Made by a program: the position numbers and the translations under genes
Source: an uncultured SAR86 cluster bacterium
GTDB lineage: Bacteria > Pseudomonadota > Gammaproteobacteria > Magnimaribacterales > D2472
DNA length: 42,216 nt
Direction: 5' to 3'
NCBI GenBank assembly: GCA_902563835.1
Contig: CACEZB010000001.1
Span: forward strand, 1 to 42,216
The notes under the pieces: model-generated
Told to the model about the DNA's origin: nothing
The model's input: only the letters and a program-made list of their open reading frames with translations
The model's database searches: none
Shown here: one piece after another, positions 29,899-42,216 of the stretch
How positions within the stretch are numbered: the first letter of the stretch is position 1
Layout of the letters: the number at the start of each line of letters is the position of its first letter

Positions 29899-29906
29899 GG
29901 TTCAAG

Positions 29907-29920
29907 AGCATTATAATGCT
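29907..29920. promoter_or_regulatory. 14-bp palindrome holding TATAAT on both strands
   Basis: AGCATTATAATGCT is a perfect palindrome between the divergent phosphatase gene and the 52-residue ORF. It reads TATAAT on the plus strand (29912-29917) and on the minus strand (29910-29915). No convincing -35 boxes accompany either. It could be a shared bidirectional -10 or a repressor site. Confidence 0.4.
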
Positions 29921-29949
29921 TAATTAAATTAAGATACAAAAGCATATTT

Positions 29950-30108
29950 ATGGATAACAAAATTATAGAGAATTTAGAAAAATTAAAAAAAATGTTGGTT
30001 CTTCTGAGTGAAGATAGAAAAGTAGTATTATCTCACCATAAAACGTTTGAACATGTTGAAAAAATGAGATCAATCGTCAATGAATCAATAGATATAGCGA
30101 GGGGATAA
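29950..30108 (+). CDS. 52-residue protein coupled to the crotonase gene
   Basis: I do not recognise this small gene. The product is one or two charged helices (start MDNKIIENLEKLKKML, end NESIDIARG), soluble, without cysteines. Support comes from its context. It fills the space before the crotonase gene, its TAA stop overlaps that gene's ATG as TAATG, and its last codons form the GAGGGG ribosome binding site of the crotonase. Its amino-acid makeup looks protein-like. A ribosome binding site for this ORF itself is not obvious. Confidence 0.6.
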   Translation: MDNKIIENLEKLKKMLVLLSEDRKVVLSHHKTFEHVEKMRSIVNESIDIARG

Positions 30109-33580: not shown

Positions 33581-34021
33581 TTAAGCATTTTTCCAAAATT
33601 CTAATGTGGTTTTATTGATGTTACTGTCTAAAGATAGGCCTACCACAGATTGATAGAAATTATCTGCTTCATCATCCCCAACTAATAACCTTAAACATTC
33701 TATGACTCTGGTTATTCTTAATTGATTATGATCGTATTTTGATTTCCAATGTTCATTCCTTTTTAAGAAAGATAAAAACCAAGAAGATGATTTTATTATG
33801 TTTTCTCTAATTTGATGACTCTCTTTTAATTCATTAATAAGGTCTTCATTATCAAGATAATAACCATGAAAAACATTTTGACTTTTTTTATTCAAAGGGA
33901 AAATGAGTTGTATGAAGTCATGATTTCCTTCAATTTGAATATCGGAGTAATCCCAGATTTCTTGAATAGTTCTTCCTTTAAAGTCTGCTTCTTTACCAAG
34001 TAAGAAGTTTTTAAAATTCAT
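33581..34021 (-). CDS. OGFr (opioid growth factor receptor) conserved-region protein
   Basis: The 146-residue protein matches the OGFr N-terminal domain pattern. It has an early GRTIQEIWDYSDIQIEGNHDFIQLIFPL, then HNQLRITRVIECLRLLVGDDEADNFY, which bacterial members share as LRITRIIRSLRLLGLEDEA. Trp/His/Asp positions in the first motif are those of the family. Bacterial OGFr-domain proteins have no known function; the animal name does not imply a receptor role. It overlaps the gene before it by 11 bases and is last in a four-gene minus cassette, ending two bases from dctM. Confidence 0.8.
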   Translation of the reverse strand: MNFKNFLLGKEADFKGRTIQEIWDYSDIQIEGNHDFIQLIFPLNKKSQNVFHGYYLDNEDLINELKESHQIRENIIKSSSWFLSFLKRNEHWKSKYDHNQLRITRVIECLRLLVGDDEADNFYQSVVGLSLDSNINKTTLEFWKNA

Positions 34022-34241
34022 TAGTTTTTATTTTAATAATCTTATTTTTTTCTAAATAGTTTTTCCAGAAAGCTAGAACCTGAGAAGCATCTTGCACATC
34101 GATTTCTTGGCACCCTTGTTCAATCATAGCTTCAGCTAAACTATTGGCAATATATCGGTACCCCTCTTTATGTAGCACTTCCCATATCTCTGCAGCTAGT
34201 TTGTGATCGACTTTATAGTAACTTGGGTTTTCTGGAATCAT
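34011..34241 (-). CDS. Small helical protein of the accessory cassette, unknown
   Basis: I do not recognise this gene. The 76-residue product appears mostly helical and soluble (LAAEIWEVLHKEGYRYIANSL and VLAFWKNYLEKNKI) with one cysteine in EQGCQEID. No signal peptide or membrane helix is seen. Its start lies 29 bases inside the preceding gene and its end 11 bases inside the OGFr-like gene, so it is locked into the cassette. It may be a partner of one of its neighbours (inference). Confidence 0.55.
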   Translation of the reverse strand: MIPENPSYYKVDHKLAAEIWEVLHKEGYRYIANSLAEAMIEQGCQEIDVQDASQVLAFWKNYLEKNKIIKIKTNEF

Positions 34242-34524
34242 TACTTAAATCTTTTATTTCTATATGATAATGGTCTATCTGTCTGGCTAATAAATTTTCA
34301 TCTGGTATGTGAGTGCTGGTATAAGCTTCATTGGTATGAGTTTCCTCCAACACAAAACGTTTACATGGAGATTCACATTTTCCGTTATTAGCCTTGTATA
34401 TAGCTTCCTCTAAGTTGTTTGCGTTTATAGGATGAAAAGATATCTCTATTCGCGTTAGCGGGACATAGTATGTTTTGAGGTTTTGATTATTGGTTACTAA
34501 AGTTAGCTTAGATCTATTTCTCAT
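34213..34524 (-). CDS. Small basic protein of the accessory cassette, unknown
   Basis: I do not recognise this gene. The 103-residue soluble product has a basic N-terminus (MRNRSKLTL), a Cys-x3-Cys pair (KCESPCKRF, close together, possibly redox or metal-binding), and a His/Asp-containing middle (ARQIDHYHIEI). I prefer ATG 34524; TTG 34542 adds six basic residues. It starts 23 bases after the PUA-like gene and overlaps the next start by 29 bases. The long overlap in a different frame supports both being translated, but either start could be wrong. Confidence 0.5.
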   Translation of the reverse strand: MRNRSKLTLVTNNQNLKTYYVPLTRIEISFHPINANNLEEAIYKANNGKCESPCKRFVLEETHTNEAYTSTHIPDENLLARQIDHYHIEIKDLSNDSRKPKLL

Positions 34525-34547
34525 TTGTTTTTCTTTTCTCAATATAG

Positions 34548-35258
34548 TTATCCTTTTAGAATAATTTCAATTGAATCCTCTGGAATAGCATATTCTATTG
34601 ATAGCCTTTCTTTGGCTTCTTTTATAGTGATTCCTTCTTCTGTTCTTTTTATATTTGGGTTTTTAACGCTATCAAGAACATGCTTAGTTCCTCTAACTCT
34701 TTCTCTAAGTCTCTCGCGGTAATCTATAATTTCTCCTTCAATTTTTTTACCTAAAATAAACTTGTTTTCTTCGTTTAAATATTCTTGTGCAAAAGACCAA
34801 TCTTCTGAAGGGCAGGTTGTGAATTCAAGTTCATTAATATTTATTCCGTTTTCAATTAGCATCGTTGTTAACGAATCTGTATTAAGATATTTTATTGGGG
34901 TCCTCTGAGGTCCAACTATATTAGCCCAAGCACGATTCCATTCCCCTCTTTCATCAGAGCCAACTTCTGCAAACTTATCAAATTTAATCGTATATCTGTC
35001 TTCGCCTCTAATTTCATTGGTACTTGAATCTACAACGCTTGATATTTCTCCTATTAAAAATGCGGCATGATGAGGGGGTTCGCCCGCCCTGACTTGTGGA
35101 TGGTGATAATTTTTACAACAAATGACGTATTTGCATTTACTTGCTCTTGCTAAATCTAACTTCCAAGAAGTAGATCCATTTATACTCAACATAAAATCAA
35201 CTGTTTTATGTGTAAAAACAAGAATGGACTCTTCATGTAGATCATAATAATTCGTCAT
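34548..35258 (-). CDS. Conserved protein with probable PUA/EVE-like N-terminal domain
   Basis: The function is unknown. The first 120 residues read like a PUA-like fold. ARASKCKYVICCKNYHHP is followed by HHAAFLIGEISSVV and YTIKFDKFAEVG, the spacing seen in a family of uncharacterised proteins with (A)RxCRYVVCxRNxHHP and GxAFLVGxIS blocks. PTGP-like QRTPIKYLNTDSLTTMLIENGI follows. The C-terminal part is charged and helical (DYRERLRERVRG). PUA-like domains often bind modified bases or RNA; that role here is inference. It is first in the cassette, with GGAG 10 bases before the ATG and an intrinsic terminator in its leader. Confidence 0.6.
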   Translation of the reverse strand: MTNYYDLHEESILVFTHKTVDFMLSINGSTSWKLDLARASKCKYVICCKNYHHPQVRAGEPPHHAAFLIGEISSVVDSSTNEIRGEDRYTIKFDKFAEVGSDERGEWNRAWANIVGPQRTPIKYLNTDSLTTMLIENGININELEFTTCPSEDWSFAQEYLNEENKFILGKKIEGEIIDYRERLRERVRGTKHVLDSVKNPNIKRTEEGITIKEAKERLSIEYAIPEDSIEIILKG

Positions 35259-35272
35259 AACTAATTTTCTCC

Positions 35273-35310
35273 AAAAAAATAAGAGGTGATGAAAGGAGGT
35301 ATCACCTCTT
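35273..35310 (-). terminator. Intrinsic terminator between lipA and the cassette
   Basis: A perfect 10-bp stem (AAGAGGTGAT at 35301-35310 read on the minus strand, ATCACCTCTT at 35281-35290) with a 10-base loop is followed by A and seven T residues (35273-35279). It is the only strong intrinsic terminator I found in the window. It stands only one base before the GGAG of the next gene. Confidence 0.85.
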
Positions 35311-35361
35311 ATTGTGTTAAATAGCTAAAGTATGGCTATGCTTCTTTAACTATAGTCAATA
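35273..35361 (-). ncRNA. Predicted ~89-nt small RNA or attenuator leader
   Basis: The predicted transcript begins near 35361, seven bases after a near-consensus promoter, and ends in an intrinsic terminator at 35273. Two stem-loops are visible. The first is a bulged stem (35346-35350 with 35316-35320, and 35335-35339 with 35321-35325). The second is the perfect 10-bp terminator hairpin. The terminator loop, ACCTCCTTTC, equals the anti-Shine-Dalgarno tail found in many 16S rRNAs. The RNA could act in trans, or be a leader that controls read-through into the cassette. No Rfam family is recognised by eye. Confidence 0.5.
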
Positions 35362-35373
35362 TTGAGGACTATA
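35351..35373. promoter_or_regulatory. Dyad operator over the -10 box and start of transcription
   Basis: TATAGTC and GACTATA, 7-bp perfect arms, flank a 9-base spacer. One arm includes the -10 hexamer and the other lies just past the predicted transcription start. This is the position of a typical repressor site. Confidence 0.45.
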
Positions 35374-35396
35374 ATTAATGAAAAAGGATTTGTCAA
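35368..35396 (-). promoter_or_regulatory. Near-consensus sigma-70 promoter of the small RNA/cassette
   Basis: On the minus strand a perfect -35 box TTGACA (35391-35396), a 17-base spacer and TATAGT (35368-35373, five of six) are present. It is the best promoter match in the window and lies 45-75 bases beyond the lipA stop, so it is not for lipA. Confidence 0.75.
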
Positions 35397-35402
35397 GATT
35401 TA

Positions 35403-35438
35403 TTTAAAGATCTTTAAATATATTTAAAGATATCTAAA
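35403..35438. repeat. Two tandem AT-rich near-palindromes, 20-base period
   Basis: TTTAAAGATCTTTAAA (35403-35418, perfect palindrome) and TTTAAAGATATCTAAA (35423-35438, imperfect) are spaced exactly 20 bases apart, about two helical turns. They sit between the lipA stop and the -35 box of the cassette promoter. Activator or repressor sites, or an UP element, are possible. Confidence 0.45.
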
Positions 35439-35440
35439 TA

Positions 35441-36403
35441 CTAAAGTCCTGCATTATTTTTTTCTAGTGCTCTCTCCGCTCTATAACTGGAACGAACCAT
35501 TGGACCAGAAACAACCTCTAAAAAGCCTTTTTTGAGACCAATTTGTCTATATTGCTCAAATTCTTCGGGAGTCACCCATCTTTCGATTGGATGGTGATTT
35601 CTAGTTGGTCTTAAATATTGCCCAATAGTTAATATATCAACTTTGTTTTCTATAAGATCGTCCATGGTTTGCTCTATTTCAGCATCAGTTTCACCAAGAC
35701 CAAGGATAATACTAGTTTTGGTTAAGACTTCTGGATTGATGCGTTTTGATTCTGCAAGGACATCTAAGGTTTGCTGATAGCCTGCTCTGATATCTCTAAC
35801 TTGGTGCGTAAGTCTCTCAACTGTTTCAATATTTTGGGCAAAAACTTCTAGTCCACAACTTACTAAAGTATCGATAGATGAAGATAAGCCTTTAAAGTCT
35901 GGTGTTAATGCTTCAACAGCTGTATTGGGATTTAATTCTTTAATTAATTTTACGGTATCGGCAAAATGTTGAGCTCCACCATCAGGCAGATCATCTCTAT
36001 TAACAGAAGTAAGTACAACATATTTTAATTTCATTATCTCAACTGCTTTTGCAGTATTCATTGGCTCATCTTTATCTAGCCATCCATTTGGGTTACCAGT
36101 ATCAACAGAACAAAACTTACATGCTCTTGTACAAACAGATCCCATTAACATAAAGGTTGCAGTGCCAGCAGACCAGCATTCATTAATATTAGGGCAATGT
36201 GCTTCTTCACAAACTGTATAAAGCCGTTTGCTTTGAACCTGTTCTTTTACTTTATGAAAGTTTGGATTAAATTCAGCCCTTACCTTTAACCAACTAGGTT
36301 TTTTTGGAGTGGGAATATCTGCGTATTTATTAAGTTTCTGACCATTTTTAATGGACTTGATGCCATCTCTATTGATGGTTTTTGTTGTAGCTATTAACTC
36401 CAT
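35441..36403 (-). CDS. lipA: Lipoyl synthase LipA
   Basis: This radical-SAM enzyme inserts sulfur at C6 and C8 of octanoyl groups on lipoyl domains. The auxiliary cluster cysteines Cys65, Cys70 and Cys76 ([12 protein letters not shown]) and the radical-SAM Cys91, Cys95 and Cys98 (CTRACKFC) are all present. The C-terminal RSSYRAE carries the conserved serine that ligates the auxiliary cluster. The 320-residue length is normal. It follows lipB by two bases. With LipB it makes the lipoate used by pyruvate and 2-oxoglutarate dehydrogenases. Confidence 0.97.
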
Positions 36404-41635: not shown

Positions 41636-41651
41636 CAATTAATCTTAAATA

Positions 41652-42216
41652 ATGGATCATATTAAAGATTTAAAAATTGTTATTACTGCTGGAGCCTCTG
41701 GCATAGGCTCTGAAGTAGCAATTGCTTTATCAAAAGCCGGTGCCAGAGTTATGATTTGTGATATAGATGAAAATCTTCTAGAAAATTTTTCTAATAAACA
41801 CCCACAAATTGCTACCTATCATGCTGATGTATCAAATGAATCTGAAATTAAGTCTTTTTTTAAAGAGATAAAAAATAAATTTAATAATATTGATGTATTA
41901 ATTAACAATGCTGGCATCTCAGGTCCCTCTGGTAAGCTCGAAGATATTGATTTCAATGAATGGAAAGAAACGTTAAATGTTAATTTGGATGGAGTTTTCC
42001 TTGCAACTAGATCAGCTATACCTCTTCTTAAAAATAATGGTGGTTCAATTATAAATATCGGCTCTACTTCTTCTTTTTTGGGTAATCCTTTAAGATCGGC
42101 ATACTCTGCAACAAAATGGGGGTTAATAGGATTAACAAAAACATGGGCTATGGAATACGGTGAAAACAATATAAGAGTTAATGCGGTCTGTCCTTCTTCA
42201 GTTAATGGGGAACGAA
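41652..42216 (+). CDS. SDR-family oxidoreductase, 5' part (runs off the window)
   Basis: An open frame runs from ATG 41652 to the end of the window (188 codons). It encodes the N-terminal three quarters of a classical short-chain dehydrogenase. It has the cofactor motif TAGASGIG (the first Gly of the usual TGxxxGIG is Ala), ADVS for the adenine pocket, NNAG (LINNAGISG), the catalytic Ser in IINIGSTSSFLG, Tyr-x3-Lys in YSATK, and the later VNAVCPSSV. Many 3-oxoacyl and sugar or alcohol dehydrogenases share these; the substrate cannot be told. It has no clear ribosome binding site and is probably cotranscribed with the MazG-like gene. Confidence 0.9.
   Translation, partial: MDHIKDLKIVITAGASGIGSEVAIALSKAGARVMICDIDENLLENFSNKHPQIATYHADVSNESEIKSFFKEIKNKFNNIDVLINNAGISGPSGKLEDIDFNEWKETLNVNLDGVFLATRSAIPLLKNNGGSIINIGSTSSFLGNPLRSAYSATKWGLIGLTKTWAMEYGENNIRVNAVCPSSVNGER

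Follow-up and report, generated by a model that had tools for sequence, protein, structure and literature searches.

A possible promoter-proximal terminator with an anti-Shine-Dalgarno-like loop before an accessory cassette in a SAR86 bacterium

What does a terminator-like hairpin do when it stands between a promoter and the gene that follows, and when its loop resembles the 3' tail of 16S rRNA? Such an arrangement is found downstream of lipA in an uncultured SAR86 cluster bacterium, within a stretch of 42,216 nucleotides (contig CACEZB010000001.1; hereafter the window). It could be a switch acting in cis, a plain stop signal or the source of a trans-acting small RNA. The last base of lipA is 35441 and the ATG of the next gene is at 35258, leaving a gap of 182 bases. 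A first-pass annotation called this the longest non-coding gap of the window; with the ORFs chosen here, on which the ranking depends, it comes third after gaps of 209 (29899-30107) and 183 (41636-41818) bases. On the minus strand the order of elements is two palindromes, TTGACA, TATAGT, a dyad on the -10 box, the hairpin, a T-run, GGAG and ATG. The features are as follows.

35410-35431, no strand: perfect 22-bp palindrome ATCTTTAAATATATTTAAAGAT, overlapping the 20-bp palindrome
35401-35420, no strand: perfect 20-bp palindrome TATTTAAAGATCTTTAAATA, inside a 36-base block common to the related genome G128 (L035)
35391-35396, minus strand: -35 box TTGACA
35368-35373, minus strand: -10 box TATAGT
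35346-35378, no strand: operator-like inverted repeat TTAATTATAGTC-9-GACTATAGTTAA, covering the -10 box
35273-35361, minus strand: predicted short leader RNA of about 85-95 nt, its ends placed from the promoter and the T-run
35312-35279, minus strand: hairpin ATAAGAGGTGAT-ACCTCCTTTC-ATCACCTCTTAT, with a 12-bp stem and a 10-base loop
35301-35312, minus strand: 5' arm of the terminator stem, containing GAGGTGAT (35308-35301), the perfect complement of 16S AUCACCUC
35291-35300, minus strand: terminator loop ACCTCCTTTC, with 8 bases in common with the organism's own 16S tail
35279-35290, minus strand: 3' arm ATCACCTCTTAT, with 8 contiguous bases in common with the 16S tail
35273-35278, minus strand: T-run of the intrinsic terminator
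35269-35272, minus strand: GGAG, ribosome-binding site of the next gene
34548-35258, minus strand: cassette gene 1, 236 aa, phrog_37247 family, function not assigned
34213-34542, minus strand: cassette gene 2, 109 aa, function not assigned; a homologue follows gene 1 in G128

The promoter is near-consensus, as the first-pass annotation had stated: TTGACA (35396-35391) and TATAGT (35373-35368) are separated by 17 bases on the minus strand. We searched a sample of the same genome consisting of the window and ten further stretches (237 kb, 24% of the 991-kb assembly). The pattern TTGACA-N16-18-TATANT, picked post hoc after the site had been seen, occurs once on both strands of this sample, and that occurrence is the present promoter. 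Weaker promoter-like sites show no excess in the local 5 kb (19 versus 20.7 in shuffles), so only the near-consensus quality counts. The inverted repeat described over the -10 box is also there: it spans 35378-35346 and is near-perfect, with 11 of 12 positions complementary, and the stretch 35339-35381 has a folding z-score of -5.1. The 22-bp palindrome at 35410-35431 is a possible protein-binding site, and the dyad together with the AT-rich palindromes upstream would probably serve as protein sites for additional control of the promoter. The overlapping palindromes at 35401-35431 (22 and 20 bp) are made of ATCTTTAAAT units, and TTTAAAGATCTTTAAA, taken from this region, is found at a single place in the 237-kb sample.

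The hairpin has the make-up of an intrinsic terminator, with a G+C-bearing stem and a T-run directly after it. The T's extend to 35273 and abut the GGAG at 35272-35269, which bears out the description of a terminator directly before the ribosome-binding site. The distance of about 90 bases from the promoter given in the same description fits the expected 3' end of the RNA (about 95 bases away) but not the hairpin itself, which begins 55 bases after the -10 box. Hairpin and T-run (35274-35312) fold at -14.4 kcal/mol (z -6.8), with 0 of 200 shuffles as good; the values are z -2.5 and 6 of 200 when the ribosome-binding site is included (35259-35312), and z -3.6 and 1 of 200 for the 105-nt leader. 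Our own scoring ranks it first among 39 terminator-like hairpins in the 237 kb of its own genome. Intergenic hairpins scoring at least as high number one in G016 and three in G034 (200-kb samples), which places this strong stem within the range of the clade. A standard terminator scan, which considers loops of 3-8 bases, listed a site on the plus strand overlapping the hairpin and missed the minus-strand hairpin because its loop has 10 bases. We consider an accidental pairing of a near-consensus promoter with a strong terminator, on one strand and about 90 bases apart, to be unlikely.

By position, and by position only, this is the layout of an attenuator, with the terminator between a promoter and the gene that it would control. 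The interval from the T-run to the start codon is too short for a full promoter, so transcripts of the cassette must pass the hairpin; the sole promoter-like site there (35273-35244, 9 of 12 positions) would start inside gene 1. The reading that we favour, with about even confidence, is that a promoter-proximal terminator (attenuator) holds down an accessory cassette. The region would then provide a small accessory cassette with its promoter and leader; the cassette occupies a variable slot that reaches from lipA to a convergent transporter gene. RNA polymerase would start near 35361 on the minus strand, and the leader of about 90 nt would fold into the strong intrinsic terminator that ends just before the ribosome-binding site of gene 1. 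A strong terminator in the leader implies that most transcripts would end there; genes 1 and 2 would be made by read-through only, which may itself be regulated. Neither inspection by eye nor Rfam revealed an antiterminator, a leader peptide or a known riboswitch. The only competing fold seen is GAGGT-GAT-ACCTC, a nascent hairpin of 5 bp that is predicted to form first (-4 to -5 kcal/mol) and is too weak to hold off a stem of -14.3 kcal/mol. The terminator could be constitutive.

The loop is what first drew attention to this locus, as it had been equated with the 10-base anti-Shine-Dalgarno tail of many 16S rRNAs. The organism's own 16S ends in GGATCACCTCCTTAACG, and measured against it only 8 bases of the loop (ACCTCCTT) agree. 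The full loop ACCTCCTTTC occurs once in the 991-kb assembly, which is this hairpin, and the same letters reversed occur four times. For a random 10-nt loop of own-genome composition, the 8-mer of the 16S tail has p 0.00018 and CCTCC p 0.0019. For a single hairpin the match is thus uncommon (about 2 in 10,000), yet a chance origin is quite possible: over 20 intergenic hairpins the probability of the 8-mer rises to about 0.004, before correcting for the many motifs that could have caught a reader's eye, which leaves the match only suggestive. These 20 terminator-like hairpins come from 637 kb of three genomes (9 from its own, 3 from G016 and 8 from G034), and the present one alone has an 8-base match to the 16S tail, in both its loop and its arms; the next-best loop (L059) shares 5 bases with the tail. 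Over these 637 kb, 2 of 541 CCTCC sites fall in a hairpin loop (that of the present hairpin and L056), compared with 3 of 1450 for the four permutations of the motif, a count that includes one hairpin twice. For the complement GGAGG the corresponding values are 4 of 541 and 4 of 1450. There is no clear excess, and any enrichment of CCTCC in loops of this clade sample is at most weak. In our view the resemblance of the loop to an anti-Shine-Dalgarno sequence is most likely incidental.

These counts, and the modest improbability of the 8-mer over 20 hairpins, fit a plain and unregulated intrinsic terminator, one that ends lipB-lipA transcription and/or insulates the cassette and whose loop letters arose by chance. 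We hold this reading to be a real possibility, if a less probable one than attenuation. Against it, the only near-consensus promoter of the 237-kb sample is located downstream of lipA and ahead of the terminator, expression of the cassette genes would depend on leakage alone, and an 8-base 16S match in stem plus loop is rarer than one in the loop alone.

The stem arms carry a feature that is absent from the first-pass annotation. The 5' arm holds GAGGTGAT, an 8-base perfect Shine-Dalgarno sequence for the organism's own 16S, and the 3' arm holds ATCACCTC, which is part of the 16S tail. The duplex of 16S tail and 5' arm is predicted at -14.4 kcal/mol, against -14.3 kcal/mol for the hairpin. One might therefore imagine a 30S-gated terminator, in which a free 30S subunit binds the 5' arm GAGGUGAU during transcription and keeps the stem from closing, so that gene 1 is transcribed; the terminator would sense free ribosomes, and ribosome availability would decide cassette transcription without a leader peptide. 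The near-equal energies, the perfect 8-base match of the arm and its standing as the only case among the 20 intergenic hairpins (8 bases in loop and arms, against 5 for the next) speak for this idea. Against it, no start codon was seen by eye at Shine-Dalgarno distance from the arm, and the hairpin is not conserved in the samples of the order and class. Moreover, the arm and loop matches are not independent, because the ACCTC of the loop repeats the ACCTC of the 3' arm; one local duplication could be the source of both. We regard 30S gating as very improbable. The same low weight is given to the broader notion that the terminator copies a Shine-Dalgarno:anti-Shine-Dalgarno duplex, with the 5' arm as the former and the 3' arm and loop as mimics of the 16S tail, so that 30S and hairpin compete. 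Pairing of the loop in cis with the GGAG at 35272-35269, as also proposed, would involve 4 bp at -6.4 kcal/mol and is judged unlikely, since a tail of about 7 bases would probably need to span the 12-bp stem.

The first-pass annotation had offered a small RNA as well as an attenuator. The attenuator half of that proposal fits, whereas the trans-acting half finds no positive support. In the latter, an RNA of about 90 nt would use its ACCUCCUUUC loop to cover the Shine-Dalgarno sites of mRNAs, and the promoter and terminator about 90 bases apart, as well as the 10 unpaired loop bases, suit such an RNA. Precedents with anti-Shine-Dalgarno loops are alpha-r14/NfeR1 of rhizobia (accessible part of PMC10746234) and CyaR; the accessible text of PMC3927594 names CyaR, RNAIII and AbcR1 among small RNAs whose loops are at least partially anti-Shine-Dalgarno. 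CyaR of Escherichia coli, which carries ACCUCCUUA and in strain K-12 reads ...CCACCTCCTTAGCC..., is a counter-example to the remark that no gammaproteobacterial RNA of this description came to mind. In the accessible parts of PMC8294330 and PMC4117421, respectively, there is nothing on an anti-Shine-Dalgarno sequence in CyaR and nothing on such a small RNA. Our literature search found no paper on a small RNA with an anti-Shine-Dalgarno terminator loop, and among papers on SAR86 small RNAs, judged by title, none on such an element.

An anti-Shine-Dalgarno small RNA would be expected to be conserved in relatives together with its loop, as the named families are; here a single genome holds a single copy. 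The 26-base hairpin core, searched at up to 3 mismatches, is absent from all 202 other genomes of the order (own only, 1 of 203) and all 368 others of the class sample (own only, 1 of 369), and the exact 22-base core is absent from the viral contigs. The hairpin and loop are thus not kept in either sample, which goes against the small RNA as first proposed. A blastn search with 281 bases around the gap matched 21 of 59 relatives, 19 at the 3' end of lipA and two (G054 and G059) in the palindrome region, where the hits are short and AT-rich; the hairpin is covered by no match. Rfam returned nothing at the gathering score; up to E 5 it gave five weak hits, sraA and STnc50 among them, all at chance level and four on the opposite strand, and CyaR was not one of them.

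The RNA chaperones also argue against a trans-acting role. Hfq, whose presence goes with a CyaR-type RNA, was found in none of 60 genomes including its own (23 of the 60 at least 90% complete), in a search that was positive in 5 of 14 control genomes (E. coli and four others). ProQ was found in none of 40 genomes including its own, with a positive E. coli control. The organism's own assembly is 73% complete, and its kin agree on the absence of both. NfeR1 is described as Hfq-independent (accessible part of PMC10746234), so the missing Hfq weakens the small-RNA idea without killing it. Strong targets are few as well: among 213 crude gene starts, taken as first ATGs and hence uncertain, 10 have a Shine-Dalgarno sequence of 6 or more bases and 5 can form a duplex with the loop of -9 kcal/mol or better. 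We rate the small RNA as improbable. Since nothing alike was found in the relatives searched, a switch acting locally or a simple stop signal is likelier than a new regulatory RNA. As a separate observation, neither Hfq nor ProQ was found across the searched genomes of the order, despite its gammaproteobacterial lineage.

We also examined the genes that the hairpin precedes. The 236-aa protein of gene 1 matches phrog_37247 (E 1e-24) and two Brevundimonas phages (37% identity over 37% of its length), and no Pfam family was found for it. A single-sequence search found gene 1 in none of 59 relatives. A search with phrog_37247 recovered, in the order, its own genome and one (G128) of 201 others, and a two-row profile of gene 1 recovered its own genome and three others from 369 genomes of the class. 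No relatives were confirmed in viral contigs (queries gene 1, A1 and A2) or genome contigs (gene 1). AlphaFold with the single sequence of gene 1 gave a mean pLDDT of 37.8, which is unusable. PADLOC gave no hits, NCBIfam one match far below its cut-off, and the window contains no tRNAs. At 33581-34021 lies a 146-aa protein with matches to the Pfam domain OGFr_N (E 5e-9), whose name derives from a eukaryotic receptor, and to PHROG (E 5e-6).

The surroundings of lipA vary among relatives. The convergent neighbour is presumably dctM, a TRAP-type permease, as named by eye from its sequence. It lies within the fetched stretch at 13 of 18 lipA loci and out of reach at 5; the lipA-dctM gap, 1,862 bases long in the window, measures about 13 to 1,330 bases in the 13 relatives. 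Genes 1 and 2 are absent from all 18 loci. Of the OGFr_N-like gene 33581-34021, L012 retains only the final 25 codons (80% identity); the 76-aa ORF 34011-34241 has a homologue in L002. These differences in gap length and gene content indicate a variable slot, which in the window is 33581-35440. A weak terminator-like hairpin follows lipA in one (L008) of 17 resolved relatives, the eighteenth (L020) being left out of this count; we thus judge it unlikely that the present hairpin is an inherited lipA terminator, and it does not have the appearance of one.

In the order, only G128 was found to carry a relative of the cassette. Its genes 1 and 2 (41% and 35% identity to those of the window) also follow lipA, with one small opposite-strand ORF intervening. 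It shares with the window a 36-base block, TTTAAAT...GATCTTTAAA...TTGA, which is short and AT-rich, ends in the TTGA of the -35 box and is identical at 29 of 36 positions (3 of 1000 shuffles score as high). This suggests that the promoter travels with the cassette. The hairpin is absent before the G128 cassette, the rest of the window leader has no counterpart in the alignment, and two stretches of the G128 leader have folding z-scores of -1.5 and -0.3. From these alignments the promoter region seems to go with the cassette, while the terminator does not, or not in every case; attenuation is therefore not a conserved property of the cassette. Among distant gene 1 homologues of the class (L037-L039), no terminator-like hairpin was found in 220 bases of leader, and the leader of a phage homologue (L040) has a weak and unrelated one.

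Other details of these loci are recorded here in their own right. The third gene of the G128 cassette (L035:2454-3131) encodes 225 aa with a sub-threshold match to uracil-DNA glycosylase (E 0.07). Ahead of the start, the leaders of two distant gene 1 homologues (L035:1384-1476 and the minus-strand leader in L037) align through TTTTTAG/CTTTTAG, CTACTC and TAG(A/G)GGACTAATCAT, a score reached by 18 of 1000 shuffles, and in the predicted fold of the L037 leader UUAGUUCU pairs with AGGACUAA over the ribosome-binding site.

How does the locus compare with known systems? Promoter-proximal terminators have been described as a class (Naville and Gautheret 2010, accessible part of PMC2965389), and some of them are linked to mobile elements. 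As in these 5' terminators or "mobile attenuators", the intrinsic terminator here lies between promoter and gene and no conserved sensor was recognised. According to the same accessible text, (i) the mean energy of 5' terminators is -16.5 kcal/mol, to which the -14.4 kcal/mol found here is close, although the methods differ; and (ii) mobile attenuators are tied to transposable elements, whereas no transposase was recognised among the ORFs of the slot. No recurrence of the present element upstream of other genes was seen. CyaR is likewise a short RNA that has an intrinsic terminator of its own and contains ACCUCCUUA, but in its predicted fold the anti-Shine-Dalgarno sequence precedes the terminator hairpin, and here it is inside the terminator loop. 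In alpha-r14/NfeR1/SmelA075 the anti-Shine-Dalgarno motif is also shown in hairpin loops; these RNAs have three or more hairpins, all with CCUCCUCCC, and are widespread in Rhizobiales (accessible parts of PMC3927594 and PMC10746234). The present case differs in having one hairpin, in one genome, with a different motif in its loop (ACCUCCUUUC).

In brief, the features of this locus are real and their kind is ordinary: we favour an attenuator over a plain terminator, followed by a small RNA and then by 30S gating. If the attenuator reading is true, this would be another accessory cassette kept quiet by a promoter-proximal terminator. In a lineage with small genomes and no detected Hfq or ProQ, cis-acting switches may replace networks of small RNAs.
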